Source: Shinella zoogloeoides
GTDB lineage: Bacteria > Pseudomonadota > Alphaproteobacteria > Rhizobiales > Rhizobiaceae
Assembly (NCBI RefSeq): GCF_033705735.1
Contig: NZ_CP131131.1
Span: forward strand, 1,798,001 to 1,862,000
Direction: 5' to 3'
DNA: 64,000 nucleotides
This document shows, one piece after another, positions 17,677 to 34,792 of this stretch; position 1 is the stretch's first letter, and every line of letters begins with the position of its first letter. Position numbers and translations under genes: made by a program. The notes below the pieces were generated by a model. That model was not told the DNA's origin. It made no database searches and was given only the letters and a program-made list of their open reading frames with translations.

Positions 17677-19218
<1,542 letters not shown>

Positions 19219-19243
19219 GGCCTCCTCCAGACTATGCTTGGAA

Positions 19244-19268
19244 GGGCAGGCGCCTTAAACGCCTGCCC
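19244..19268 (-). other. intercistronic stem-loop behind the nucleoside-binding protein gene
   Basis: Nine-base arms GGGCAGGCG and CGCCTGCCC with a 7-base loop lie between the binding-protein stop and the ATPase start. No U-run follows on the transcribed strand. Such hairpins commonly protect the 3 prime end of binding-protein mRNA or attenuate read-through. Confidence 0.6.
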
Positions 19269-19276
19269 GCCGTTCC

Positions 19277-20266
19277 TCAGAGAGGGCACTTGTCGTCCGA
19301 CATGTAGTCGTGGACATCGAGCGTGCCGGCGGCGATCTCGTCCTTCGCCTTCCTGGCGGCCGCCTCGACCTCGGGAGTGATCAGGCTGCGGTTATGCTCG
19401 TCCAGCGCCCAGTCGACGCCGTTCTCGGCAAGGCCGAGCGACTGCACGCCGCCGGTGAAGTGGCCTTCCTTGGCATCCTTCAGCGCATTGTAGACCGCGA
19501 CGTCGACGCGCTTGACCATGGAGGTCAGCATGACGCCCGGATGCATGTAGTTCTGGTTGGAATCGACGCCGATGGCGAACTTTCCGGCATCCGCGACCTT
19601 CTGGAGGACACCGATGCCCGTGCCGCCGGCCGCGGCGAAGATGACGTCCGCACCCTGGCCCATCTGGGAGGCCGCGATCTCGCCGCCCTTGACCGGGTCG
19701 TTGAAGGCGGCGTTCGTCGTGCCCGTCATGTTGCGGATGATGTTCGTCGCGCCGCCGGCCGCCGCGCCCTGTGCAAAGCCACAGCCGAACTTGCGGATGA
19801 TCGGGATATCCATGCCGCCGATGAAGCCGACGGCCTTGCTCTTGGAGGAGAGCGCCGCGATCAGGCCGACCACGTAGGACCCCTGCTCTTCCTTGAAGGT
19901 GACGGAGCGGACATTGGGAAGATCGACCACGTCATCGAGCATCACGAAGTCGATGTCGGGGAATTCTTTAGCGACCTTGGCGAGCTGGTCCTTGTAGCCG
20001 AAATTCGTGACGATGACCGGGCTGAAGCCGCGGCTGGCGAAGTTGCGGATGCCCTGCTCCGCCTGGGAATCGGCCTGCGCCTCGAAATCGCGGTAGCTGG
20101 AGCCGGTGTCCGCCTTGAACTTTTCCGCGCCCGTATAGGCCATCTCGTTGAACGACTTGTCGAACTTGCCGCTCGTTCCGTAGACGATCGCCGGGTTGAA
20201 ATCGGCCGCCGCCGCGCCCGCCGTCATCGCCGCCAAGGCGACCGTCACCATCAGATGTTTCAGCAT
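19277..20266 (-). CDS. BMP-family nucleoside-binding protein of an ABC importer
   Basis: A 329-residue periplasmic binding protein of the basic membrane protein (BMP/PnrA) family. A signal peptide spans about residues 1-22 (LMVTVALAAMTAGAAAADF). The family opening FNPAIVYGTSGKFDKSFNEM follows, and later blocks include FAAAGGTGIGVLQKV and the DSNQNY ligand region. The ATG at 20266 is preferred over that at 20272 because the AGGGAGGGGA ribosome-binding site is better spaced for it. It heads an operon with the ATPase, two permeases and a nucleoside hydrolase, so purine or pyrimidine nucleosides are the probable ligands. Confidence 0.88.
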   Translation of the reverse strand: MLKHLMVTVALAAMTAGAAAADFNPAIVYGTSGKFDKSFNEMAYTGAEKFKADTGSSYRDFEAQADSQAEQGIRNFASRGFSPVIVTNFGYKDQLAKVAKEFPDIDFVMLDDVVDLPNVRSVTFKEEQGSYVVGLIAALSSKSKAVGFIGGMDIPIIRKFGCGFAQGAAAGGATNIIRNMTGTTNAAFNDPVKGGEIAASQMGQGADVIFAAAGGTGIGVLQKVADAGKFAIGVDSNQNYMHPGVMLTSMVKRVDVAVYNALKDAKEGHFTGGVQSLGLAENGVDWALDEHNRSLITPEVEAAARKAKDEIAAGTLDVHDYMSDDKCPL

Positions 20267-20377
20267 TGTCATTCCCCTCCCTGGATGCCGGGGCATGCAG
20301 CGCCGGCGAGACCGATCCTAATGTCTATACATATGACGGCCGGACTATTCGCTGTCAACAGAAAACCGGCCGTTTCC

Positions 20378-21706: not shown

Positions 21707-23194
21707 TCAGTGCACCGCGGCGTACATGATGCTCTCGCTCGACGCGTCGATGGGCGAGAACTCCTCCACCACCCGGCCCTGCCTTGCGACGAGGATGCGG
21801 TCGGAGAGGGAGAGGATTTCCGGCAGGTAGGAGGAAATCACCACCACGGCCAGCCCCTCGTCGGCCAGCCGCTGGATGAGCGCGTGGATCTCGGCGACCG
21901 CACCCACGTCGACGCCGCGCGTCGGCTCGTCGAAGATGATGAGCCGCGGCTTCTGAATGAGCGCCTTGCCGATCACCACCTTCTGCTGGTTGCCGCCGGA
22001 AAGCTCGACGACGCGCGCCTCCCCGCCGATGGAGCGGATGGCGAGCCTGTCGGTCCATTCCTCCGCCAGCGCCTTCATCTCCGCCATGGAGACGAAGGGA
22101 AAGCGGTTCTTTCCGGCCGCCAGCAGCCCGGCATAGAGGTTTTCGGCGATCGACATGTTCTCGAAGAAGCCTTCGAGTTTGCGGTCCTCGGTGACATAGA
22201 CGATACCGTCGGCGACCGCCGGGCCGGGCGTCGCATAGCGCACGGGACGGCCTTCATATTCGATGGCGCCGCCGCGCAGGAAATCGCGCTTGAAGACGCC
22301 GGCGACGATCTTGGCCGTCTCGGTGCGACCGGAGCCGACGAGGCCGAAGAGGCCCGTCACCTGCCCGGCGAAGACGGAGAAGGACGTGTTGCGGACGAGC
22401 GCGCCCATCGAGACGTCCTCGACCGAAAGCACGCGCTGTCCGGCCGGACGGGTCTTGGTGCGCGGCGCAAACTCGGTGGCGAGCTCGCGGCCGACCATCG
22501 CCTGCACGATGCGTGCCTGCGTCAGGTCGCCGGCCTTTTCCGTCAGCACCCTTCTGCCGTCGCGCATGACGGTGATGCGGTCGGACATCTGCAGCGCCTC
22601 TTCCAGCGCGTGGGTGATGAAGATGATCGCGACGCCCCGGGCGCGCAGGCGGTCGATCAGCGAGAAGAAATGCCGCCGCTCCTCGGGCGTCAGCGTCGCC
22701 GTCGGCTCGTCGAAGATGATGACCTTGGCATTCAGCCGCACCGCGCGGGCGATCTCGACCATCTGCCGCTTGGCGGCTCCGAGGCTGGAGACCAGCGCCG
22801 TCGGGTCCACGGTGAAGTTCAGCGATTGCAGGAACTGCTGCGCCGCGATGGTGATGCCGCGCAGGCGGTTGAACGCCTTTTCATGGCCGAGGAACAGGTT
22901 CTGCGCCACGGTCATCGAGGGCACGAGGCTGGTTTCCTGATAGACCATGGCGATGCCGCGGCGCAGCGCCTCCGCCGGCCCTTCGGCCCGCAGCGGCTCT
23001 CCCTGATAGAGGATTTCGCCGCCTTCGGGCGGATAGACGCCGGCCAGAAGCTTGCTGAAGGTGGACTTGCCCGCCCCGTTCTCGCCGAGCAGGGCGTGGA
23101 CTTCGCCCGCCTCGAGCGTGAAATCCACCGCATCCACCGCGACATTGCCGTGGAAGGCCTTGGTCAGCGCGCGCGCCTCGAGGATTGCTGTCAT
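21707..23194 (-). CDS. sugar ABC transporter ATP-binding protein (double NBD)
   Basis: A 495-residue RbsA/MglA-type ATPase. The ATG at 23194 overlaps the stop of the propeller gene (ATGA) and is where the ABC domain begins (TAILEARALTKAFHG). NBD1 has GENGAGKST, signature SLGAAKRQMVEIARA and Walker B VIIFDEPTATLT. NBD2 has GLVGSGRTET in place of a strict Walker A, then LSGGNQQK and LIIFDEPTRGVD. It powers the permease encoded at 27.6 kb and the permease-propeller fusion at 24.3 kb. It is the last transport gene before the LacI regulator. Confidence 0.9.
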   Translation of the reverse strand: MTAILEARALTKAFHGNVAVDAVDFTLEAGEVHALLGENGAGKSTFSKLLAGVYPPEGGEILYQGEPLRAEGPAEALRRGIAMVYQETSLVPSMTVAQNLFLGHEKAFNRLRGITIAAQQFLQSLNFTVDPTALVSSLGAAKRQMVEIARAVRLNAKVIIFDEPTATLTPEERRHFFSLIDRLRARGVAIIFITHALEEALQMSDRITVMRDGRRVLTEKAGDLTQARIVQAMVGRELATEFAPRTKTRPAGQRVLSVEDVSMGALVRNTSFSVFAGQVTGLFGLVGSGRTETAKIVAGVFKRDFLRGGAIEYEGRPVRYATPGPAVADGIVYVTEDRKLEGFFENMSIAENLYAGLLAAGKNRFPFVSMAEMKALAEEWTDRLAIRSIGGEARVVELSGGNQQKVVIGKALIQKPRLIIFDEPTRGVDVGAVAEIHALIQRLADEGLAVVVISSYLPEILSLSDRILVARQGRVVEEFSPIDASSESIMYAAVH

Positions 23195-24258
23195 GGCTGG
23201 GCCTCCCGGCTCGGGATATCGACGATCTCGCCCGCCCCTTTCAGCGCGACCAGCCGCGCCTGCGGCAGGTCCAGCACAGAGACCGCGCCGTGGCGCTGGC
23301 CGTCCGCGCGCGAATGCAGGCTGGCGAGCGGGCGGAACGCCGCGTCCAGCCGGGCGACGAGGCCATAGGACCGCGCCGGCGCCCAGGGCTTGCGCACGCC
23401 CATCGTGCGTACCCCGCCGCGCTGCAGGGGCTCCAGGAAACTCTCGCCCGAGCGCAGCGCGGGGGCGATCCAGTAATCCTGCGGCACGGTGGCGATCATG
23501 TCGGCGCGGAAGCGATCCTCGCGCAGCACGAGCTCGATCAGCCGGTTGCGCGGGGCGAAGACCGGCAGCCACCAGCCGCCCGCTCGCGCCGGCGAAAGCC
23601 GGCCCGGATAGCCGGGGATGCGGTCGAGGACGGTACGCGGCCGGCCGCCGAGGGCGACGAGCCGATGGGCGAAAGCCTCGGCCACCACCGGCGCGCCAGC
23701 CTCATCGCGCGCCAGCCCGGTCGGGAAGGCGAGCCCGCCCGCGATCCGCTCCGCCTTGCCGCCGGCAAGGTCGAGCCGCCAGACGGCGCCGTCGCGGCGC
23801 TTGCGCATCAGCGCCGGCACCCATTCCGTGGCGGCATGGCTGGCCGAGCCCTGCGCGACCAGCAAAGTGCCATCATCGTTCGCCAGCAGCGCCGTCGCCG
23901 AGACGGCGGCGGGAAAGGCTTGGCGCAGATCCCGGCTTGCGCCATCGCGCCGAAGGATCAGGCCGCCATCTGCCAGCGCCACGACGAGCCCGCCGCCCGG
24001 CAGGGCCGAAAGCGCGGTGATGGGCGCGGCGAAGGTCTCGGCCGGTTTGGCCTTCTCGTCCTCCAGCCGGTAGAGCACGGGGCCGCCGGTCAGCCAGATC
24101 GTTCCCTCGCTGTCCTCTGCGAGATTGTCGGCCTCCGGCAGCGCGGCAACGTGCGCCGCCGTTTCCAGTTGCGTGTTCGGTTTCCATGCGCCGTCATAGG
24201 GCGGGATGGTGACGGCTTCGCCGCGGAACGGGTCGAGCAGGCGGTCGAGGAGCGTCAT
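23191..24258 (-). CDS. SMP-30/strictosidine synthase-like beta-propeller protein
   Basis: A 355-residue protein that resembles the six-bladed propellers of the SMP-30/gluconolactonase and strictosidine synthase-like families. Blade-like repeats are visible (DNLAEDSEGTIWLTGGP, AFPTGLARDEAGAPVVAE, RIPGYPGRLSPARAGGWWL). No signal peptide is seen, so a cytoplasmic location is likely. The ATG at 24258 overlaps the stop of the upstream fusion gene and its own stop overlaps the ATPase start, so it is embedded in the sugar importer operon. Related enzymes hydrolyse sugar lactones or other esters; here the metal-site residues are less clear than in the fusion protein. Activity is inferred, and it may be a divergent partner of the fused propeller. 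Confidence 0.7.
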   Translation of the reverse strand: MTLLDRLLDPFRGEAVTIPPYDGAWKPNTQLETAAHVAALPEADNLAEDSEGTIWLTGGPVLYRLEDEKAKPAETFAAPITALSALPGGGLVVALADGGLILRRDGASRDLRQAFPAAVSATALLANDDGTLLVAQGSASHAATEWVPALMRKRRDGAVWRLDLAGGKAERIAGGLAFPTGLARDEAGAPVVAEAFAHRLVALGGRPRTVLDRIPGYPGRLSPARAGGWWLPVFAPRNRLIELVLREDRFRADMIATVPQDYWIAPALRSGESFLEPLQRGGVRTMGVRKPWAPARSYGLVARLDAAFRPLASLHSRADGQRHGAVSVLDLPQARLVALKGAGEIVDIPSREAQP

Positions 24259-26393
24259 GCCCTGTCTCCCCAGTAGGAATTCCAGCTCGTCCAGTCCGGA
24301 TCGGCATCTGGCAGGCGAATGCGGCCGATGCGGTTGTTGAGGATGCCGCCGATATACAGCCAGCCCTTGTGCTCGCGCATGGACGTGACCATCGGATGAG
24401 CCGCGCCGCCGAGATCGCCGAGGGTCGCGACGATGGCGCCCGTCTCGTCGAACTTCACAACGCCGCCGGTGTTGATGTTCGGGAAGAGCCAGTCGTCCTG
24501 CGGCAGGTTGCGTGTCATGCGCTTGCGCATGGCGGGGTGGCGGAGCGCCAGGTCGAAGCTCGGCGTGCGCATGCCGAGCCATGCCATCCAGTAGGTGCCG
24601 TCCGAGGCGCGGTTGATGTTGTCGGGATAGCCGGGCATGTCGCGGATCATCGTTTCGAGCTGGCCTTCCTTCGGCCCGGCGATCCAGTAGCGGTGCACCG
24701 AGCAGGCCCAGCTTTCGGCGATCAGCAGCGACTGGCCGTCATGGGAGAGGCAGACGCCGTTGGCATAGCGCAGGTTCTTCAGCACCGTGCGCGTCCTGCC
24801 GGTCTTCGGGTCATGGACAAGGAGGCGGCCGGTCGGCCGGCTCTCGATGGAATCCAGCGCCCAGTCATGGGCATCGTAGCGCGTGGTGGAATCGGTGAAC
24901 CAGATGCGCCCGTCCGGGCCGATGTCGCAGTCGTTCGGATCGCGCAGGCGCGCATCGTCGACGACAGAGAAGAGCGAGCGCCGCGTTTCGGTGGAAAGCT
25001 CGCGCACCCCGCCGTCCTTCGCCACGCCGTAAAGGCCCATGGCGCCGACGCAGGAGACGATCTGCCCGTCGCGGGCCATGGCGAGGCCGAGCGGAAAGCC
25101 GCCGATATGGGCGAACACTTCGGAACGGGTATAGTCCGGCGCGAACCAGCGCACGATCTCGCCATGGCGCGTGCCGGCATAGAGATTGTCGTCGGCGTCG
25201 AGGATCACGTCCTCGGGCCCCTCCACCGTGCCGAGCGCGATGGGCTCGGCCGAGGCCAGCGCATCGTTCAGCGCATAGGCCGTGCCGGAACCCGGCAGCG
25301 CCGACTGGGCGGGCTGCATGGCATGGTGCAGCGGGGCGACATAGACTTCCGACAGCACCTTGTGACGGTTCTTCAGCCAGCGCACGTCGAGAACGATGGC
25401 GGCCGCCAGCAGCAGCCCGACGATGAGCTGGCTGGTGCCGGTGCCCGCGCCCATGCGGATGAGGCCGTTGGTGATGAGCAGCACGACGATGGCGCCCATC
25501 AGCCCCTTGGCGATGGAGCCGCGCCCGCCGCCAAGGCTGTTGCCGCCGACGACGGCGGCGGTGAGGGCGGCAAGCTCCAGACCGAGCCCCGTTCCCGGGC
25601 CGACGCCCGAAAGGCGCGCGGCGAAGAGGAAGCCGGCGAGGCCGCAGGCAGCCCCCGAGATGACATAGGTGAGGAAGATCGTGCGGCGCACGTTGATGCC
25701 GACATTGAAGGCCGAACGGCGCGCGCCGCCGACGGCGGTAAAGTGCCAGCCGATGCGGGACCGGCTCATCACCAGATGGGCGATCAGCGCGAAGGCGAGC
25801 GCGATCAGCGCGCTGATCGGCTGGCCCCAGACCGCGCCCATGCCGATATGGTCGAACGTGTCGTTGAATACCGGCGAGCTCTGGATGCGGGCGCCCCATG
25901 TGGTGATCAGGATGTCGTAGATCGAGCGGCCGATGATGAGCGTGACCAACGTGGTCAGGAAGGCGCGCAGGCGCAGATAGCCGACGAGAAAGCCGTTGAG
26001 CGCGCCGAACAGCGCGCCGGCCCCGAGCGCGGCGAGGAAGGCCAGCCACACCGGCCCCTCGGCGATATAGATGACGGCGAGGGTCGCGAACGCGCCCAAC
26101 GCGAAGATGGAGCCGACGGAAAGATCGATGCCGCCGCCGATGATGACGACCGTGAGGCCGAGCACGACGATCAGGAACTCGCCGAGCTGGCGGGTGGTGT
26201 CGAGGAGGCTCGACGGCGCGAAGAAGCCCGGCAGGAGAATGCCGAAGGCGGCCACCACCACGACGAGGAAGGCGAAGGGCACGAGATTGTCGGCCCAGCT
26301 CTTCGACAGGATTTCACCCAGCAGGTGATCGGGCACCTTGTTGTAGCGCAGGCGGGTCAGTCTTTCACGAAGCGTCATTCGGGCCGGTTCCAT
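24255..26393 (-). CDS. ABC sugar permease fused to a strictosidine synthase/SMP-30-like propeller
   Basis: A single 712-residue frame with two different halves. Residues 1-340 are a complete RbsC-type permease (IIGGGIDLSVGSIFALG near 84-100; GGNSLGGGRGSIAKG near 283-297). After a linker of about 45 residues, residues 386-700 form a six-bladed propeller with strictosidine synthase-like blocks: GTVEGPEDVILDADDNLYAG, RDPNDCDIGPDGRIWFTDS, TGRLLVHDPKTG, LRYANGVCLSHDG and DMPGYPDNINRASDGTYW. The Glu, Asn and Asp positions expected for the metal site appear to be kept. In RbsC-type permeases the C-terminus is thought to face the cytoplasm, so the propeller may act on substrate as it enters. The start at 26393 lacks a clear ribosome-binding site; the ATG at 26378 is an alternative. 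No frameshift is needed to join the halves. Confidence 0.85.
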   Translation of the reverse strand: MEPARMTLRERLTRLRYNKVPDHLLGEILSKSWADNLVPFAFLVVVVAAFGILLPGFFAPSSLLDTTRQLGEFLIVVLGLTVVIIGGGIDLSVGSIFALGAFATLAVIYIAEGPVWLAFLAALGAGALFGALNGFLVGYLRLRAFLTTLVTLIIGRSIYDILITTWGARIQSSPVFNDTFDHIGMGAVWGQPISALIALAFALIAHLVMSRSRIGWHFTAVGGARRSAFNVGINVRRTIFLTYVISGAACGLAGFLFAARLSGVGPGTGLGLELAALTAAVVGGNSLGGGRGSIAKGLMGAIVVLLITNGLIRMGAGTGTSQLIVGLLLAAAIVLDVRWLKNRHKVLSEVYVAPLHHAMQPAQSALPGSGTAYALNDALASAEPIALGTVEGPEDVILDADDNLYAGTRHGEIVRWFAPDYTRSEVFAHIGGFPLGLAMARDGQIVSCVGAMGLYGVAKDGGVRELSTETRRSLFSVVDDARLRDPNDCDIGPDGRIWFTDSTTRYDAHDWALDSIESRPTGRLLVHDPKTGRTRTVLKNLRYANGVCLSHDGQSLLIAESWACSVHRYWIAGPKEGQLETMIRDMPGYPDNINRASDGTYWMAWLGMRTPSFDLALRHPAMRKRMTRNLPQDDWLFPNINTGGVVKFDETGAIVATLGDLGGAAHPMVTSMREHKGWLYIGGILNNRIGRIRLPDADPDWTSWNSYWGDRA

Positions 26394-26399
26394 GGGGGT

Positions 26400-26430
26400 G
26401 GAGGAGGCGGGCCGCTGGCCGGCCTCCTCC
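26400..26430 (-). other. intercistronic stem-loop behind the sugar-binding protein gene
   Basis: Nine-base arms GGAGGAGGC and GCCTCCTCC enclose a 13-base loop that can itself pair (GGCC-gct-GGCC region). It lies between the binding-protein stop and the start of the permease-propeller gene. It probably raises binding-protein mRNA relative to downstream messages. It also sequesters the area where a ribosome-binding site for the fusion gene would be expected. Confidence 0.6.
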
Positions 26431-26439
26431 CTGTCTTCA

Positions 26440-27468
26440 TTACTTCTTGGCGGCGGCCTCGATGGCGGCCTGGCTCCAGCACGTATCCGGCGTCAGGTCT
26501 TTCTTCGAACGGGCGATCTCATGCGTATAGAGATAGTTCTTGCTGTCGCCCGGCTTGATGCCGCTCTGGAGCAGGATCTTGATGGCGGCCACGACGTCCT
26601 GCGACTGGCGCGGCAGCTCGCTCGTCACGATGGCGCCGAAGGTGCCGTCCTCGATGAGCTTGCAATCGATCGCTTCGCCCGAGCCCGTCGTGGCGAGGAA
26701 GATCTTGTCCTTGAGGCCGGCATCGCGGATCGCCGAGGCGGTGCCCTGCGCCGTCGCATCCCAGAAATCGACGATGCCGCAGACGTCCGGGTGCTGCTGC
26801 AGGATGGTGGCGGCGGCGTTGCGCGCCGTCGTCGCATCCCAGTTGGAATCCGCGGTGCCCGCGACCGTCCAGCCCGGATTGCGCTCCAGCACGGCCTGTA
26901 CGCCGGCCCACTGGTCTAGGCTCGACGAATTCACCTGGTCGCCCTGGATGACGGCGATCTTCTTGGAGGAGCTTTCACCGCAATGGTCGATGACGGCCTG
27001 CGTCTCCAGTTCGCCGAGGCGCTTCCAGTCCGAGCCGGCGAAGACGTCGGAGGCGTAGTTCGACGGGTTGTCGAGCTGCACGACGAAGATGCCGGCTTCC
27101 TGCGCGCGCTTGAAGAGGCGCGAATAGGAGTTGAGGTCCGGCGTCTGGACGATCAGCACGTCGGGCTTTTCGGCCGAGGAGATCAGGTCGGTGATCGCCT
27201 GCGCGCCGGCATCGACGCTCCAGTTGGGGTCGCGCGTTTCCCAGATGCCGCCGAACTGCTTGACTTCCTCGCCGATGAAGTGGTTCCAGCCCTGCGCGAG
27301 GTCGAAGCCCATGGTCATGGGCACCATCACCACGCGCTTGCCTTCCAGCGCCGAGCGATAGGCTTCGGGGCCGGGATTGGTTTCCTGCGCCTGTGCGCCG
27401 ATGGCGGCGCCCGCAAGGCAGGCCCCCGCCAGGACGACGCGCCGGAGTGTCTTTCTCAGATTGCTCAT
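26440..27468 (-). CDS. sugar ABC transporter substrate-binding protein (Peripla_BP_4 type)
   Basis: A 342-residue periplasmic binding protein with a Sec signal (about residues 1-28, ending IGAQAQE). The mature part shows the two-lobed class I pattern: VVMVPMTMGFDLAQGWN, KPDVLIVQTPDLNSYSRLFKRA, KKIAVIQGDQVNSS, DVCGIVDFWDATAQG and FLATTGSGEAIDCKLIEDG. GGAGG lies 9 bases before the ATG at 27468. It is encoded between the two permease genes of the system. Its ligand is unknown; the adjacent propeller proteins hint at a lactone or another sugar derivative, which is inference only. Confidence 0.88.
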   Translation of the reverse strand: MSNLRKTLRRVVLAGACLAGAAIGAQAQETNPGPEAYRSALEGKRVVMVPMTMGFDLAQGWNHFIGEEVKQFGGIWETRDPNWSVDAGAQAITDLISSAEKPDVLIVQTPDLNSYSRLFKRAQEAGIFVVQLDNPSNYASDVFAGSDWKRLGELETQAVIDHCGESSSKKIAVIQGDQVNSSSLDQWAGVQAVLERNPGWTVAGTADSNWDATTARNAAATILQQHPDVCGIVDFWDATAQGTASAIRDAGLKDKIFLATTGSGEAIDCKLIEDGTFGAIVTSELPRQSQDVVAAIKILLQSGIKPGDSKNYLYTHEIARSKKDLTPDTCWSQAAIEAAAKK

Positions 27469-27609: not shown

Positions 27610-28632
27610 CTAGATGTCGCCCTGCTGACTGGTCTGCTCGTCGCGGGGATTGAGTTGCCCATCGAGGATGATCGCGCCGAGCAGGATCAGCGCCTTGATG
27701 AGATTCTGGTGGATGTTCGGCAGGTTGAGGATGGTCATGCCGTTGAGCAGGATGCCGATCAGCAGCGCGCCCACGACCACGTTGCGCATGCCGCCCTTGC
27801 CGCCGGAAAGCCCGATGCCGCCGATCACCACGACCAGCACCACGTCGTAGAGCAGGGCCGAGTTGACCAGCCGCGTGTTCATGCTCTGCAGGCTGACGGC
27901 GCTCGCCATGCCGGCAAGCCAGGCAAGGAGCGCGCTTGCGACGAAGGAGGCGACGATCAGCGGGCGCACCGGGATGCCCATGGTGCGCGCGGCCTGGAAA
28001 TTGTCGCCCATCAGGTAGAGGAAGCGGCCCGGCCGCGACCAGCGCAGCAGCACCAGCGCCACCGCCACGACGGCGAGGAAGACGACGACGTCGAGCGGCA
28101 GGCCGAGGATGCGGGCCTTGCCGAGCCAGAGCAGCGTTTCGGCCGTCTCGGGAATGTAGATGACGTCCTGCGAGAGGATCTGCGAGCGGACGAAGCCGAA
28201 GACGAAGGCGCTCGAGGCCAGCGTGGCGAACAGCGCCGAGACGCCGGCATAGGCCACCATGAAGCCGTTCATCGCGCCGAGCCCGATGGTGATCGCCGCG
28301 ACGAGCGCGCTCGCCGACCAGAGCGACCAGCCCGCCTGCAACAGCTGAAGCTGGATGGCGACCGTCACCACCATGATCGAGACCATGGACAGATCGATGC
28401 CGCGCCCGATGACGACGATGCCCATGCCGGCGGCGAGGATGCCGAGCACGGAGACGCTGCGCACGATGTTGAGGAGGTTCGCCGGCGCGGTGAACCCATC
28501 GAGCGCCACGGCGAAACCGACGAACAGCACCACCGCCATCAGGAGAACGATGGTTTCCTGCGTGAATATCCTGAACAGGGGTCGGCTAGCTGGCACCTGA
28601 TGATTTCCGTCTAGAGCATTCGGATCGGGCAC
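27610..28632 (-). CDS. sugar ABC transporter permease, RbsC type
   Basis: A 340-residue permease of the BPD_transp_2 family. Typical blocks are LAAGMGIVVIGRGIDLSMVSIMVVT, GDNFQAARTMGIPVRPLIVASF and VVVIGGIGLSGGKGG. The frame as given begins with GTG at 28632 and has about 25 non-membrane residues before the first helix; no strong ribosome-binding site supports it, and a GTG at VPASRPLF further in is possible. It is the promoter-proximal gene of the second sugar operon, 141 bp before the binding-protein gene. It would pair with the permease half of the fusion protein. Confidence 0.85.
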   Translation of the reverse strand: MPDPNALDGNHQVPASRPLFRIFTQETIVLLMAVVLFVGFAVALDGFTAPANLLNIVRSVSVLGILAAGMGIVVIGRGIDLSMVSIMVVTVAIQLQLLQAGWSLWSASALVAAITIGLGAMNGFMVAYAGVSALFATLASSAFVFGFVRSQILSQDVIYIPETAETLLWLGKARILGLPLDVVVFLAVVAVALVLLRWSRPGRFLYLMGDNFQAARTMGIPVRPLIVASFVASALLAWLAGMASAVSLQSMNTRLVNSALLYDVVLVVVIGGIGLSGGKGGMRNVVVGALLIGILLNGMTILNLPNIHQNLIKALILLGAIILDGQLNPRDEQTSQQGDI

Positions 28633-28732: not shown

Positions 28733-29731
28733 TCACGCGGAAAATCCATCCATCGTCAAGATCGTCGATCCGGTCGTCGCGCGCCCTTCGAGCGCGCGAT
28801 GCGCTTCCACCGCCGCGCGCAGCGGCAGGCTGGACGCCGCACCGGCGCGAAGGCTTCCCGAGACGAGGCGCGTGAACAGCTCCGCGCTGCGCTCGCGTCG
28901 TTCCTCGGCGCTCGTCAGATAATCGAAGACGACGGGCCGGATGGCCGACCTGGACCCCGCCGCCAGATCGGAAATGCGGAAGCCCTCGATCGGCCCGGAT
29001 GCCTGGCCGAAGCTCACGAAACGGCCGTGCGGGCGCAGACAGGCGAGCGAGCCGCGCCAGGTATCCTTGCCCACCGCGTCGAAGACCGTGTGGCACAGGG
29101 CGCCGCCAGTCAGCTCCGCCACGCGGGCGGCAAAGTCCTCGCGGCGGTATTCGATCACGGCGTCATATCCGTGCGCCAAGGCCAGTTCGGCCTTTTCCCG
29201 CGATCCGGCGGTGCCGATGGCACGCGCGCCGAGGGCGGCGATCCACTGCCCGAGCAGCAGCCCGACCCCGCCGGCGGCGGCGTGGACGAGCACCGTCTGC
29301 CCCGCCAGAACGGGCGCGGCGGTGGACACCAGCACCTGCGCCGTCAGTCCCTTGAGCAGGACCGAGGCGGCCAGCGCCGCGTCGATCCCGTCCGGCAGCA
29401 TGATCAGCCTGTCGGCGGGCATGACCCGCATCTCGCGATAAGCGCCGGTGCGCTCCAGATAGGCGACGCGCTGGCCGACCGAAAGCGTCTCGACGCCTGG
29501 GCCGAGCGCGACCACCGTGCCCGCCGCCTCCGCGCCCGGCACGAGCACGTCGCCCGGCCAGGGATAGAGCCCGGAGCGGTAATAGGTGTCGATGAAGTTG
29601 AGCCCCGCCGCTTCCTGGCGGATCAGCACCTCGCCGGGGCCGGGCGTTTCCACCGCAAGCTCCGTCCATTCCAGGACATCCGGCCCGCCGGGTTGGCGCG
29701 CGATGACCGCGCCTGCCTTGATCGCGGCCAT
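28733..29731 (-). CDS. NADPH:quinone oxidoreductase-family protein
   Basis: A 332-residue medium-chain dehydrogenase/reductase of the zinc-independent quinone oxidoreductase group. The N-terminal GroES-like domain contains EAAGLNFIDTYYRSGLYPW, then PGAEAAGTVVALGPGV; the nucleotide fold has VHAAAGGVGLLLGQW and AVGKDTWRGSLACLRPHGRFVSFG. Family members reduce quinones or enones with NADPH. It follows the AhpD-like gene by 3 bases, so both are cotranscribed with the aminotransferase upstream. The physiological substrate is unknown; a role in detoxification or carbonyl reduction is plausible. Confidence 0.85.
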   Translation of the reverse strand: MAAIKAGAVIARQPGGPDVLEWTELAVETPGPGEVLIRQEAAGLNFIDTYYRSGLYPWPGDVLVPGAEAAGTVVALGPGVETLSVGQRVAYLERTGAYREMRVMPADRLIMLPDGIDAALAASVLLKGLTAQVLVSTAAPVLAGQTVLVHAAAGGVGLLLGQWIAALGARAIGTAGSREKAELALAHGYDAVIEYRREDFAARVAELTGGALCHTVFDAVGKDTWRGSLACLRPHGRFVSFGQASGPIEGFRISDLAAGSRSAIRPVVFDYLTSAEERRERSAELFTRLVSGSLRAGAASSLPLRAAVEAHRALEGRATTGSTILTMDGFSA

Positions 29732-29734
29732 GTC

Positions 29735-30145
29735 TCAGCTCTCGACCAGGAACTGCGGATCGATCGGCAGTTGCAGCGCGTTGAGCAGGGCATTGGTCTG
29801 CGAAGCCATGCCGATCACCGCCAGAAGCTCGGCGTGCTGGTCCCCGGTCATGCCCTTGGCCTTGGCCGCCGCGGTGTGGGAATGGACGCAATAGCTGCAG
29901 CCATTGGCGACCGACACGGCGATATAGAGCATTTCCTTGACCAGCGGATCGAGCGCGCCGGGCTTGACCATGACGTCCTTCAGGCCGGACCAGATGCGCT
30001 CCAGCGTATCCGGCTGGTTGGCGAGCGCCCGCCACACATTGTTGACGAAATCGGACTTGCGGGTGGCGCGGATGTCGTCGAACACCGCCTTGACGCGCGG
30101 GTTCGCTTCGGCTTCGGCGTCGGTCCACAGGCGAACGGTACTCAT
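29735..30145 (-). CDS. carboxymuconolactone decarboxylase/AhpD-like protein
   Basis: A 136-residue all-helical protein of the AhpD/CMD superfamily. The redox signature is intact: ANGCSYCVHSHTAAA, with CxxC and a following His pair, typical of alkylhydroperoxidase-like disulfide reductases rather than true decarboxylases. Its neighbours are an aminotransferase 20 bp upstream and a quinone oxidoreductase 3 bp downstream. It may protect against peroxides or electrophiles made by the pathway. No signal peptide is present, so it is cytoplasmic. Confidence 0.85.
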   Translation of the reverse strand: MSTVRLWTDAEAEANPRVKAVFDDIRATRKSDFVNNVWRALANQPDTLERIWSGLKDVMVKPGALDPLVKEMLYIAVSVANGCSYCVHSHTAAAKAKGMTGDQHAELLAVIGMASQTNALLNALQLPIDPQFLVES

Positions 30146-30165: not shown

Positions 30166-31020
30166 TCAGCTATGCGCCCAATCCCAGTAAAGCTGCCGCG
30201 CCCGGCGGGCGAGCGGGCCATAATCGAAGGTGCGGTCGTCGAAGCCAAGGACCGGCATGACCTTAGAGATATTGCCGGTGCTGAAGATCTCGTCGGCCGC
30301 CCGGAAATCCTCGACCGTCAGCGTCTTCTCGTGCACCGCAACGCCGTCCGCGCGCAGCAGGCCGATCACCCGCTGGCGGGTGATGCCGTCGAGGAACGTG
30401 CCGTTCGGCACCGGCGTGAACACCTCGCCGTCCTTGGCCATGAATACGTTCGAGGTCGCCAGCTCCGCCACATTGCCGAGCGTGTCGCAGACCAGCGCAT
30501 TGCCGAAGCCCCTGGCGCGCGCCTCGGCCAGCATGCGGGCATTGTTGGGATAGAGGCAGGCGGCCTTGGCGTTGACCGGCATGGTCTCCAGCGTCGGACG
30601 GCGAAAACGGGTCGTCGTGATGGTGAAGCCGCCGGGCACGGCCATCGGCCGCTCCTCCAGGCAAAGGGCGAAGGCCGTCGATGCGGGATCGGGCGCGACG
30701 ACGCTCGCATCGCTCTCCTCCGCCCAGTACATGGGGCGGATATAGACGGCGGCGTCGGGCGGGAAATGCGCCAGCCCCTCCTGCACGCGCTCCATGATCT
30801 GCGCGGCGGTGAGCGTCGGCCGGAGGCCGAGCGCGCGGGCGGATGCGTTGACCCGCTCCGCATGGAGGTCGAGATCGGGGATCACACCCTCGAAGCGGCG
30901 CGCGCCGTCGAACACCAGCGAGCCGAGCCATGTCGCATGCGAGCCGGCGCCGAGAATACGCACATCGCCCGCGTGCCATTGGTTCTCGTACCACGTCCGG
31001 ACGGAAGGCGCTTGCGACAT
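30166..31020 (-). CDS. class IV (branched-chain-type) aminotransferase
   Basis: A 284-residue PLP enzyme of fold type IV. Visible motifs include GAGSHATWLGSLVFDGARRFEG at the N-terminal substrate region, VYIRPMYW, the probable PLP lysine in METMPVNAKAACLYPNN-like context (PVNAKAACLYPNNARML), and NVAELATSNVFMAKDG with the conserved Glu. Members transaminate branched-chain amino acids, D-amino acids or aminodeoxychorismate; the N-terminal pattern favours the branched-chain group. It heads the leftward operon with AhpD-like and quinone oxidoreductase genes and is divergent from a LysR gene. A catabolic role is likely because a regulator is dedicated to it. Confidence 0.8.
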   Translation of the reverse strand: MSQAPSVRTWYENQWHAGDVRILGAGSHATWLGSLVFDGARRFEGVIPDLDLHAERVNASARALGLRPTLTAAQIMERVQEGLAHFPPDAAVYIRPMYWAEESDASVVAPDPASTAFALCLEERPMAVPGGFTITTTRFRRPTLETMPVNAKAACLYPNNARMLAEARARGFGNALVCDTLGNVAELATSNVFMAKDGEVFTPVPNGTFLDGITRQRVIGLLRADGVAVHEKTLTVEDFRAADEIFSTGNISKVMPVLGFDDRTFDYGPLARRARQLYWDWAHS

Positions 31021-31135: not shown

Positions 31136-32029
31136 ATGGACGAGCGGCTGTTGAAAAGTTTCGTGACGACCGCCCAGCTCGGCAGTGTCACCTCGGCGGC
31201 CGAGCGGCTGAACCTCACCCAGCCCGCATTGTCGCGGCAGATCCAGCGGCTCGAGCAGGAGCTCGGGCTGACGCTCTTCCAGCGCAGCGGCCGCAACCTG
31301 CGCCTCTCGGTGCAGGGCGACCGGCTGCTGATCGACGCGCAGGCCGTCCTTGCCGCCAGCAAGCGCCTCCATGACGCGGTCGCCGAGATGCGCGAGGGCG
31401 AATGCGGCCTGCTGCGCGTCGGCGCCTGCTCCCAGGTGATCGAGCGCCATATGAGCGAGGTGTTGCCCGCCTGGAAGCAGGACAATCCCAATATCGACAT
31501 AAGGCTGGAGGAAGGCGGCGGTGCGGAGCTTGCCCGCCGGCTCGACGACAACGAGCTGCATCTGGCGATCAACGCCCGCCATTTCGCGCGGCCCGACCGC
31601 TTCAGCCGCGTCGATATCGGCGCGATGCGCGTGCGCGCCTTCTCGCTCCCCTCGGTCTTCGCCTGTGAGACCCGGACCATCACCCTGGCGCAGCTCTGCC
31701 GCCAGCCGCTGCTGCTGCTCAATCGAAGGCATTTCACCCGCGAGCTGCTCGAAACCGCCTGCCAGGCGGAAAGCTGCCTCGCGCAGCCGACGCTGGAATC
31801 CTCCTCGCCCCATACGCTGCTGGCGATTGCCCGCAGCAGCGGCGGCGTCGCGGTCGTGCCCCATCTCGGCACCGGCCCCGTGGAAGGGCTGGTCGCCTAC
31901 GACATCCTGCACCGCGGCAAGCCGCTCGACTTCGAGATGTCGGCGATCTGGCCGTCCTCGGTGCCGCTCCCCGGCTACGGCCAGCGCTTCATCGCCTATC
32001 TGCGCGACCGGCTCCTGCCTTCCGCCTGA
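31136..32029 (+). CDS. LysR-family transcriptional regulator
   Basis: A 297-residue regulator with the N-terminal winged helix of LysR proteins (LLKSFVTTAQLGSVTSAAERLNLTQPALSRQIQRLE, split here by residues 4-38) and a C-terminal effector-binding domain. It is divergent from the aminotransferase operon across 115 bp, the classic LysR layout, and is also 131 bp upstream of the BMP importer operon in the same direction. It therefore may control either unit. The start ATG at 31136 has GGGAGACGAAGG upstream. Confidence 0.9.
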   Translation: MDERLLKSFVTTAQLGSVTSAAERLNLTQPALSRQIQRLEQELGLTLFQRSGRNLRLSVQGDRLLIDAQAVLAASKRLHDAVAEMREGECGLLRVGACSQVIERHMSEVLPAWKQDNPNIDIRLEEGGGAELARRLDDNELHLAINARHFARPDRFSRVDIGAMRVRAFSLPSVFACETRTITLAQLCRQPLLLLNRRHFTRELLETACQAESCLAQPTLESSSPHTLLAIARSSGGVAVVPHLGTGPVEGLVAYDILHRGKPLDFEMSAIWPSSVPLPGYGQRFIAYLRDRLLPSA

Positions 32030-32160: not shown

Positions 32161-33177
32161 ATGCAAAGCAATTTCGGCATTTCCAGACGCCGGCTGATCC
32201 AGGCCGCCGGCGCATCCGCGCTCGTGGCGGCGGCGGGCTTGCCAAGCCGCCTCTTCGCGGCCGAGCCGATCAAGGTCGCGGCGGTCTTTACCGTTCCGGT
32301 CGAGCAGCAATGGGTGAGCCGCATCCACAAGGCCGCAAATGCCGCCAAGGACCGCGGCGAGATCGAATATGTCTATTCGGAAAACACCGCCAACAACGAT
32401 TATGAACGCGTCATGCGCGAATATTGCGAGGCCGGGCACAAACTCATCCTCGGCGAGGTCTTCGGCGTCGAGGATGCCGCGCGCGCCGTCGCCCGTGACT
32501 ATCCCGACGTCGCCTTCCTGATGGGTTCGAGCTTCAAGCCCGATCCGGACCTGCCGAACTTTTCAGTCTTCGACAACTATATCCAGGACGCCTCCTATCT
32601 TTCCGGCCTCGTCGCCGGCGCGCTGACCAAGTCGAAGAACATCGGCATGGTCGGCGGCTACCCGATCCCCGAGGTTAACCGCCTGATGAACGCCTTCATG
32701 GCGGGCGTGAAGGAAGTGGCGCCCGACACCAGGTTCCAGGTCGCCTTCATCGGCTCGTGGTTCGATCCGCCCAAGGCCAAGGAAACCGCTTTCGCCCAGA
32801 TCGACGGCGGCGCCGACCTGCTCTATGCCGAGCGCTTCGGCGTATCCGACGCGGCCAAGGAGAAGAAGGTGCTTGCCATCGGCAACGTCATCGACACGCA
32901 GGCCGACTATCCCGATACCGTCGCCGCCTCGGCGCTGTGGCACTTCGAGCCGACCCTCGACAAGGCGATCGCCGAAGTGAAGGCCGGCACCTTCAAGGCC
33001 GACGACTACGGCGTCTATTCCTTCATGAAGAACGGCGGCTGTTCGCTCGCGCCGCTCGGCACCTTCGAAGGCAAGGTTCCGGGCGAGATCAAGGCGAAGA
33101 TCGCGGAGAAGGAAAAGGCGATCAAGGACGGTTCCTTCACCGTCGCGGTCGACGACAGCGAGCCGAAATCCAGCTAA
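32161..33177 (+). CDS. BMP-family substrate-binding protein with a Tat-type signal
   Basis: A 338-residue binding protein of the BMP/PnrA family. The N-terminus has a twin-arginine-like signal (ISRRRLIQAAGASALVAAAG) ending at LFAAEP. The mature region shows KVAAVFTVPVEQQWVSRIHKA, SENTANNDYERVMREYCEAGHKLI, NIGMVGGYPIPEVNRLMNAF and ADLLYAERFG. GAGGGGA lies upstream of the ATG. It is the first gene of an operon with an ATPase, two permeases and a cytosine deaminase-family enzyme, so a nucleobase or nucleoside ligand is likely. Tat export is unusual for this family and would mean export in a folded state. Confidence 0.87.
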   Translation: MQSNFGISRRRLIQAAGASALVAAAGLPSRLFAAEPIKVAAVFTVPVEQQWVSRIHKAANAAKDRGEIEYVYSENTANNDYERVMREYCEAGHKLILGEVFGVEDAARAVARDYPDVAFLMGSSFKPDPDLPNFSVFDNYIQDASYLSGLVAGALTKSKNIGMVGGYPIPEVNRLMNAFMAGVKEVAPDTRFQVAFIGSWFDPPKAKETAFAQIDGGADLLYAERFGVSDAAKEKKVLAIGNVIDTQADYPDTVAASALWHFEPTLDKAIAEVKAGTFKADDYGVYSFMKNGGCSLAPLGTFEGKVPGEIKAKIAEKEKAIKDGSFTVAVDDSEPKSS

Positions 33178-33182
33178 GTCCC

Positions 33183-33223
33183 TCCGCCCGGGGGCGGCCG
33201 CGCCGCGGCCCCTCCCGGGCGGA
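33183..33223 (+). other. large intercistronic stem-loop behind the BMP gene
   Basis: Ten-base arms TCCGCCCGGG and CCCGGGCGGA flank an inner GC-rich region that can fold further (GGCCGCG with GCGGCC). It begins 5 bases after the binding-protein stop and ends 39 bases before the ATPase start. No U-run follows. It probably stabilises the binding-protein message. Confidence 0.6.
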
Positions 33224-33262
33224 CGATCCCCTCTCCCACCGTTCCCTTCGGTCCGTATCGCC

Positions 33263-34792
33263 GTGTCCAGTACCCCTGTCCTCCGCCTTTCCGGCATCAG
33301 CAAGCGTTTCGGTCCGCTGAGGGCCAACGATGCGATCTCCTTCGAGCTGAAGCGCGGCGAAGTGATTGCCCTTCTCGGCGAGAACGGCGCCGGCAAGACG
33401 ACGCTAATGAATATTCTCTTCGGCCACTATGTCGCCGACGAGGGAACCGTCGAGGCCTTCGGCACGCCCCTGCCGCCGGGTGACCCGCGCGCGGCGCTTA
33501 ATGCCGGCATTGGCATGGTGCACCAGCACTTCACGCTCGCCGACAACATGACGGTGCAGGAGAATATCGCGCTCGGCACGCAAAGCCTGTGGAGCCCGCG
33601 GCTCGACAGGTCCGCCGCGCGCCGGCGCATCGAGGAACTGTCCGCCGACTTCGGCCTTGCCGTCGATCCCGCCGCCACCGTCGCCACCCTTTCGGTCGGC
33701 GAGCGCCAGCGGGTGGAAATCCTGAAGGCGCTCTACCGCGATGCCCGGATCCTGATCCTCGACGAACCGACGGCCGTGCTGACGCCCGCCGAGACGGAAG
33801 CCCTGTTCCGCACGCTGAAGCTGCTCGTCGCCAAGGGCCTGTCGATCATCTTCATCTCGCACAAGCTGCAGGAGGTCATGGCGGTCAGCGACCGCGTGCT
33901 GGTTCTGCGCGCCGGCAAGCTGGTCGGCGAGCGCGAGACGGCCTCGACCGACCGCAGGGAACTCGCCGCCCTGATGGTCGGCCAGGAGGTGAAACCGGCG
34001 GAGGTCAACCCGGCGAGGCTCGGCGCGCCGCTGCTCACGCTCGATCGCGTCTCCACCGCCCCGCACAACGGGGCCGGGCTTGCCGACGTGTCGCTCACCC
34101 TCACGGCCGGCGAGATCACCGGCCTTGCCGGCGTATCGGGCAATGGCCAGGCGGCGCTTGCCGCCCTGCTCTCCGGCATCCGGCGCCCGACCGGCGGCCG
34201 CATCTCCATCGCCGACCGGGAGGTCACCGACTGGTCGCCGCGCGCCGCGCTTGCCCACGGCATCGCCCGCATCCCCGAGGATCGCCATGCCGTCGGCACC
34301 ATCGGCGACATGAGCGTCACGGAGAACGTGATCGCCGAGCACTATGGCAGCCCGCGCTTCAGCCGCATGGGCTTCCTTAACTGGAAGGCCGCCCGGCGTT
34401 TCGCCGAGAAGATCATCGCCGACTACGACGTCAAATGCCCGTCGCCGGAGGCGCGCATCCGCCTGCTATCCGGCGGCAACATGCAGAAGCTCATCCTCGG
34501 CCGCGCGCTCGATCCCGATCCCGCGGTCATCCTTGCCAGCCAGCCGACCCGCGGGCTCGATGTCGGCGCCGTCGCCTATGTCCATCGCATGCTGCTGGCG
34601 GCGCGCGACCGGGGCGCGGCGATCCTACTGATCTCGGAGGACCTGGAGGAAATCCTGGCGCTGTCCGACCGGATCACCGTCATGTCGGCGGGGCATCTTT
34701 CCGCGCCGTCCGCGCGCGGCGAACGAAGCATCCGGGAACTGGGGGAACTGATGGCGGGCCATAGCGGGGAGCACAGCGATCATGCGGCTTGA
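33263..34792 (+). CDS. nucleobase/nucleoside ABC transporter ATP-binding protein (double NBD)
   Basis: A 509-residue ATPase starting with GTG at 33263. NBD1 has GENGAGKTT, signature LSVGERQRVEILKAL and Walker B ILILDEPTAVLTP. NBD2 has the degenerate GVSGNGQAAL, signature LSGGNMQKLILGRAL and ILASQPTRGLD with Gln at the catalytic Glu position, as in other BMP-linked ATPases. Its last 11 bases overlap the next permease gene in another frame, so the two are translationally coupled. Confidence 0.9.
   Translation: MSSTPVLRLSGISKRFGPLRANDAISFELKRGEVIALLGENGAGKTTLMNILFGHYVADEGTVEAFGTPLPPGDPRAALNAGIGMVHQHFTLADNMTVQENIALGTQSLWSPRLDRSAARRRIEELSADFGLAVDPAATVATLSVGERQRVEILKALYRDARILILDEPTAVLTPAETEALFRTLKLLVAKGLSIIFISHKLQEVMAVSDRVLVLRAGKLVGERETASTDRRELAALMVGQEVKPAEVNPARLGAPLLTLDRVSTAPHNGAGLADVSLTLTAGEITGLAGVSGNGQAALAALLSGIRRPTGGRISIADREVTDWSPRAALAHGIARIPEDRHAVGTIGDMSVTENVIAEHYGSPRFSRMGFLNWKAARRFAEKIIADYDVKCPSPEARIRLLSGGNMQKLILGRALDPDPAVILASQPTRGLDVGAVAYVHRMLLAARDRGAAILLISEDLEEILALSDRITVMSAGHLSAPSARGERSIRELGELMAGHSGEHSDHAA

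Follow-up and report, generated by a model that had tools for sequence, protein, structure and literature searches.

The window analysed here, a 64,000-nucleotide stretch of Shinella zoogloeoides DNA (contig NZ_CP131131.1, positions 1,798,001 to 1,862,000), contains a gene, designated FUS, in which the permease of a ribose-type ATP-binding cassette (ABC) importer is joined in frame to a six-bladed propeller. The gene lies within a five-gene transporter module that also encodes a second permease, a binding protein, a second propeller and a double ATPase. The fusion is genuine, not a sequencing artefact; it is old, widespread and conserved, and the fused genes form a single clade with a single origin. 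We consider hydrolysis of the imported compound on entry, by the fused propeller, to be the best reading of the module, with slightly better than even confidence.

The preliminary description of this locus had proposed an in-frame permease-propeller fusion in a 712-residue frame, and the fusion itself was borne out by the frame, by the Pfam domains and by the junction shared with relatives. An open frame of 712 residues does exist, on the minus strand (which that description did not state), but in the alignment of FUS with 29 relatives most of the latter start at M6 (position 26378), so that the true length is probably 707 residues. The gene and its parts are as follows.

24255..26393, minus strand: fused permease-propeller gene (FUS), ATG to TGA, open frame of 712 residues
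25374..26393, minus strand: RbsC-type permease part, residues 1-340, with BPD_transp_2; ten membrane helices assumed, both ends predicted to be cytosolic
25239..25373, minus strand: linker, residues 341-385, of which the first 16 are strongly conserved
24294..25238, minus strand: six-bladed propeller, residues 386-700, strictosidine-synthase-like/TGW6 type by Pfam domains, predicted model and fold search

The domain search of both halves that had been suggested matched BPD_transp_2 at residues 64-331 (E = 3.5e-36), followed by SSL_N (372-416), SGL (454-607) and Str_synth (487-573), the last of which scored 75.2 bits against a Pfam cut-off of 25. A frame of 729 residues on the opposite strand (24369-26558) is probably the usual shadow of GC-rich coding DNA.

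An ordinary artefact, in which a lost stop or a frameshift joined two genes in this single genome, can be given practically no credence, and it is ruled out by the occurrence of the same junction across relatives and genome searches. A single frame covered query residues ≤30 to ≥690 in all of the best 80 of 137 named-genome loci (148 pattern matches, 137 of them encoding a relative). Among the best 120 of 3,702 homologues (E ≤ 0.001), all had both permease and propeller domains, at 69-99% identity; the junction was ungapped in 29 of 30 aligned rows, and P0095 had two one-residue gaps. The same junction was found in the class, order, phylum and family searches. The propeller alone, used as the query against 347 genomes of the order, had a match at E ≤ 1e-15 in 59 (rows hand-counted); 53 propeller places in 44 genomes, at least 48% identical, all lay inside frames of at least 707 residues, and the 30 best matches were full stop-free fusions without exception. 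Three further rows with at least 50% identity lay in shorter frames (G556 twice, G531:C6), and 15 unfused-looking propeller places were only 28-36% identical (14 in frames of 336-444 residues, G490 in one of 664 residues). The remaining weaker partial matches are probably the second propeller. In the class search 10 of 385 genomes matched at E ≤ 1e-100, at 13 places, one of them in a shorter frame (G368), where the fusion is cut. Fourteen of 398 genomes of the phylum matched at 1e-60, 11 with fusions and 3 with unfused propellers of 39-40% identity. Fourteen plasmid records, including Pantoea and Paraburkholderia, matched at 1e-100, each covering 80% or more of the query.

Two overlapping sets of loci were compared further. 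The first comprised 106 loci, of which 98 carry the complete fusion and were used; those left out are the paralogous permeases of the window's genome (L002-L008) and a shorter piece (L103). This set includes the window itself (L001) and one duplicate (L089, of L009). The second comprised 47 loci, for the most part distant fusions, and shares 13 with the first. The span from W339 to E391 across the linker was 53 residues in 94 of the 98 loci and 50-53 residues in 47 of the 47 distant loci (53 in 25), and the mean share of the majority residue over linker residues 341-356 was 0.90 in the latter. The tree of loci was a quick one, with Shimodaira-Hasegawa-like approximate likelihood ratio test (SH-aLRT) support only. 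Two records stand apart. In L024, a metagenome-assembled genome labelled Xylophilus, presumably a betaproteobacterial genus, the fusion is 81% identical to that of the window, by transfer or mis-binning. P0187, a record labelled Escherichia coli, holds a 637-residue fusion piece on a 1,930-base contig and is probably contamination.

Separate genes in close relatives had been named as a sign of error, and the outcome was mixed. No clean unfused propeller with more than 40% identity was seen in the genomes of the class, order, phylum or family searches. Among short database proteins, in contrast, 716 matched the propeller alone, and the 120 listed were 261-637 residues long and 53-84% identical. 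Fifteen of these 120 were inspected: four retain the permease end (P0146, P0150, P0152, P0165), five start inside the propeller, and six have their start, a plausible one, at the propeller and are 58-75% identical (P0155, P0163, P0188, P0216, P0218, P0221), on contigs of 4-91 kb. The propeller-only proteins may be natural splits or broken copies. When 394 genomes of the family were searched with P0155, 77 had a match at E ≤ 1e-40 (rows hand-counted). Of 99 rows with at least 46% identity, 94 lay in frames of at least 670 residues, two of these with one internal stop, and 5 in shorter frames, of which two are the halves of a single place in G1387; a row of 39% (G1060) lay in a 699-residue frame, and 12 unfused rows were 33-37% identical. 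Against plasmids, P0155 recovered the 14 fusions noted above, together with one match of 36% and a place where a circular record begins. These counts suggest that close relatives without the fusion either occur rarely or are broken copies. Broken-looking fusion genes, with two frames or one internal stop, were noted in the family search at G1387 (contig C1, near 2864500), G1064:C6 and G1324:C11 (near 33100).

An unfused ancestor beside a permease was looked for around the unfused propellers. Eleven of the 15 order places (8-12 kb each; G457, G572, G456 and G490 excluded) were inspected, and none had a relative of the second permease, the permease half or the binding protein; the only related gene was one distant ATPase match, at L147. 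Likewise, none of these three relatives was found near the three unfused propellers of the phylum. Near the closest unfused propellers (∼40%; L162 and L164) is an oxidoreductase with distant similarity to the quinone reductase of the window, and at L162 there are an alpha/beta hydrolase and a thioesterase as well; these neighbours settled no substrate.

The other four genes of the module, all on the same strand as FUS, are the following.

21707..23194, minus strand: sugar-type double ATPase, the nucleotide-binding domain (NBD) protein, XylG/YtfR/AraG-like by profile matches
23191..24258, minus strand: second propeller (PROP2), 355 residues, ligand residues mostly lost
26440..27468, minus strand: periplasmic binding protein (SBP), Peripla_BP_4, signal peptide by eye
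27610..28632, minus strand: second RbsC-type permease (PERM2), no propeller, by profile matches

FUS, PROP2 and the ATPase are probably translated together, because the start of PROP2 overlaps the stop of FUS by 4 bases (ATGA) and the start of the ATPase likewise overlaps the stop of PROP2 by 4. The view that these genes make a self-contained five-gene system held up: all five are present and their order is conserved. The order PERM2-SBP-FUS-PROP2-NBD was complete in 84 of the 98 loci; 13 lack PERM2 or more, and in each of them the sequence upstream of the fusion frame is no longer than 1,525 bases (in L019 the downstream side is short as well); in L015 the order is scrambled only through a long stop-free frame that overruns the first genes. 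In the second set PERM2, SBP and PROP2 were found in 47/47 loci and the ATPase in 46/47, L197 being a 10-kb contig. The module order is thus kept wherever there is enough sequence, across Alpha-, Beta- and Gammaproteobacteria. Distances from part to part among six parts correlated at 0.84-0.97 (74 loci; kinship not corrected for). In L011 (Brucella pituitosa) PROP2 and SBP each match in two pieces and are possibly broken, and the fusion is whole. Further ABC systems flank the operon in the window (17680-19254, 19277-20296 and 33029-34789); they include a Bmp-type binding protein, and their ATPases resemble that of the module. The window's genome has 53 matches to the FUS protein, mostly to its permease half.

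By its SSL_N and Str_synth domains and its six-bladed predicted fold, the fused propeller groups with strictosidine-synthase-like/TGW6 proteins. In addition, it has E, N or D, N, D and N at the positions that we take to be the ligand positions of Ca-dependent propeller hydrolases (PON/DFPase/SMP-30), in all loci checked:

25212..25214, minus strand: E394, ligand position 1; E in 98/98 and 47/47 loci
24933..24935, minus strand: N487, ligand position 2; N in 86 and D in 12 of 98, D in 46 and N in 1 of 47
24759..24761, minus strand: N545, ligand position 3; N in 98/98 and 47/47 loci
24618..24623, minus strand: D591-N592, ligand positions 4 and 5; DN in 98/98 and 47/47 loci

The suggestion that the propeller has enzyme-like residues was therefore confirmed, and the loss of ligands from all homologues, which had been named as a result that would speak against it, was not seen in these loci.

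A second propeller in the system had also been reported, correctly as to its presence and fold; what had been missed is that its ligand residues are mostly lost. PROP2 was present in 98/98 loci and has invariant segments of its own. In 25 sampled copies, aligned at ∼26% identity, the position of E394 was D in 22 and E in 1, that of N487 was T in 22, that of N545 was Y in 15 and N in 2, that of D591 was A in 20, and that of N592 was R in 24 and N in 1. As judged from this alignment, PROP2 keeps the propeller fold and has mostly lost the ligand residues. A sequence search found no convincing solved relative of PROP2; the fold search did find relatives. The maintenance of such a ligand-poor propeller in every one of the 98 loci, with its own invariant segments, would be expected if both propellers were a structural scaffold that merely clamps the transporter or recruits downstream enzymes. 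This explanation leaves the five kept active-site residues of the fused propeller unaccounted for, and we regard it as improbable.

In order to place the propeller relative to the membrane, ten helices were taken from the FUS model, with their limits set by hand. The inner segments hold 7, 0, 2, 3, 1 and 3 K/R and the outer segments none. Both termini of RbsC are reported to be cytosolic, as would be those of FUS. The propeller would then act after passage, because this topology places it in the cytosol. By eye, PROP2 has no signal peptide and the binding protein has one. In the mechanism that we favor, the binding protein of a ribose-type (RbsABC) importer would capture a neutral compound, most likely a hydroxy-acid lactone (or an ester), which would cross the pore formed by FUS and PERM2, powered by the double ATPase. 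The strictosidine-synthase-like hydrolase propeller, tethered to the cytosolic C-terminus of one permease, would open the lactone or ester to a charged acid; this acid could not flow back and would enter acid or CoA catabolism, a form of metabolic trapping on the inner face. PROP2 would be a noncatalytic paralogue, probably a structural or regulatory partner.

A literature search, the broader part of which was judged by titles and abstract openings of the matches listed, found no description of a permease-propeller fusion, in agreement with the preliminary description, which knew of no characterised example. The module shares with the ribose-type (CUT2) importers RbsABC, XylFGH and AraFGH the BPD_transp_2 permease family, the double ATPase and the Peripla_BP_4 binding protein, all in one operon, and the best NCBIfam matches of its ATPase are XylG, YtfR and AraG. 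However, no module protein reached a sugar-transporter equivalog cut-off (e.g., 139 versus 398 bits for the ribose permease), and the module differs from CUT2 importers in having a propeller fused to one of the two permeases and a second propeller gene between the fusion and the ATPase. Strictosidine synthase has G at the positions of N545 and D591, whereas the fused propeller keeps both ligand residues; Met668, invariant in 30/30 rows, aligns near Glu309 of strictosidine synthase, presumably its catalytic glutamate. Among bacterial lactonases and Ca-dependent hydrolases (RPA3624, DFPase and Drp35) the solved proteins are free-standing and 14-19% identical to the fused propeller. PON1 appears only in the fold list of PROP2; the list for FUS was filled by propeller matches, so that the absence of permease structures from it carries no meaning. 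LplT-Aas fusions resemble FUS in carrying a transporter and a metabolic enzyme on one chain, but they join a major facilitator superfamily flippase to an acyltransferase, while FUS joins an ABC importer permease to a hydrolase-like propeller.

The genes next to the module were surveyed in 80 loci, namely the window and 79 others that each span 12 kb or more. In the window they are the following.

28733..29731, minus strand: NADPH:quinone-reductase-like oxidoreductase; cluster in 22/80 loci, window counted
29735..30145, minus strand: AhpD/carboxymuconolactone decarboxylase (CMD)-family protein with CxxCxxxH; cluster in 69/80 loci, window counted
30166..31020, minus strand: class IV aminotransferase (NF009896/PRK13356, above cut-off); cluster in 19/80 loci
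31136..32029, plus strand: divergent LysR-type regulator, possibly regulating the module operon; cluster in 23/80 loci

The AhpD-like gene directly follows the ATPase in 45 of 68 loci. As a 'carboxymuconolactone decarboxylase' it had been considered as proof of a lactone, but this was rejected: 68/69 copies have the AhpD-type CxxCxxxH, and the domain is the AhpD core. A PanB-like gene, which would make pantolactone a candidate, occurs in 26/80 loci; the inspected copy, from Mesorhizobium, is below cut-offs and ∼7 kb away. An L-fucono-1,5-lactonase-like amidohydrolase (below cut-off), the PanB-like protein and a fatty-acid-desaturase-like protein recur 5-9 kb from the module in these 26 loci (L054, L075 and L088 of Mesorhizobium and others). 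Neighbors in distant clades differ and partly follow the tree, with acyl-CoA dehydrogenase at L092, L180 and L181 and alcohol plus aldehyde dehydrogenases at L168 and L205; they point to hydroxy-acid/CoA chemistry, which the preliminary description had overlooked.

A degradative 3-hydroxy-3-methylglutaryl-CoA (HMG-CoA) reductase was first noticed beside the module of L165 (Shinella sp. HZN7 pShin-02). It adjoins the module at L165, L182 and L186, which form one clade, and elsewhere at L185, L200 and L206; at L165 and L185 it scores above the TIGR00532 cut-off. The L185 module is also surrounded by a CoA-transferase, an enoyl-CoA hydratase and an HMG-CoA lyase (NF004283 above cut-off). PF00368 was searched for in 54 fusion genomes from the class, order and phylum searches (34, and the remaining 20 within the 347 of the order) and found in 6. 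In 5 of them it was on the fusion contig within ∼15 kb (G468, G486 and G604, ∼6 kb; G340, ∼11 kb; G281, ∼15 kb); in G203 it was ∼256 kb away. By rough arithmetic, a 5-Mb genome with one to three modules would have a given gene no more than 15 kb from one of them in ∼1-2% of cases. L165, L185, L186 and L182 are candidate mevalonate/mevalonolactone uptake operons. Substrates probably differ by clade, with mevalonolactone or mevalonate in one.

Several observations weigh against hydrolysis on entry or against a single substrate throughout the family. HMG-CoA reductase is absent from the window's genome, so the mevalonate link does not extend to the window, and the reductase is not enriched with the fusion (3/44 fused versus 36/303 other genomes of the order); it was accordingly rejected as a marker of the whole family. 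That mevalonolactone or mevalonate import is the ancestral, general function of the family, window included, could be argued from reductases adjoining modules on two separate tree branches (L165/L182/L186 and L185) and from the lyase at L185. With 41 of the 44 fused order genomes lacking the reductase and other clades having other neighbors, this is very improbable; the link is a matter of one clade and a few further loci. The full-length FUS model is of middling quality (mean predicted local distance difference test [pLDDT], 67), propeller conservation falls below that of the ATPase in the more distant loci (55% versus 63%), and the 58-75%-identical propeller-only proteins mean that some strains may be able to do without the joint.

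The closest comparison also counts on this side. TGW6, a rice indole-3-acetic acid (IAA)-glucose hydrolase (PDB 8KG3), prefers an indole ring and showed no calcium in the crystal despite the same five ligand residues (PMC10958001). TGW6 is a free-standing plant protein, whereas the fused propeller is bacterial and permease-borne. The 'apparently intact metal site' of the preliminary description accordingly stands as a statement about residues, and the site is putative.

A strongly conserved domain that only binds would look much alike. The propeller could be a regulatory sensor that binds the import without cutting it and slows the transporter in a full cell, as in the trans-inhibition of MetNI and ModBC. 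Its tethering to a permease on the side of the ATPase, the retention of the ligand-less PROP2 in the same operon and the chance that a TGW6-type site holds no metal are all consistent with such a role. However, the transporter regulatory domains known to us sit on the ATPase, and the hydrolase residues are invariant over fusions that span 41-100% identity while the binding proteins fall to ∼30%. Invariant hydrolase residues despite probably varying substrates fit chemistry better than sensing, and we consider a sensor unlikely, although it and the scaffold are both rivals to be reckoned with. Hydrolysis on entry is hence preferred, and the earlier interpretation as a whole is partly supported.

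The general view of ABC importers is that their cargo is released unchanged. We tentatively propose, as a possibility held with less than even confidence, that the module represents an undescribed ABC importer family with an active permease-borne hydrolase and a dead copy, in which transport would be coupled to ring-opening and different clades would have adapted to different hydroxy-acid lactones, mevalonolactone among them; it would be a general bacterial route of lactone uptake with chemical trapping where the pore opens inward. If so, this would be a rare case of transport and chemistry on one chain in the ABC superfamily, and it would assign a function to proteins whose only names at present are 'SMP-30/gluconolactonase/LRE family protein' or 'ABC transporter permease'. 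For one clade, the neighboring mevalonate genes offer a directly testable substrate.

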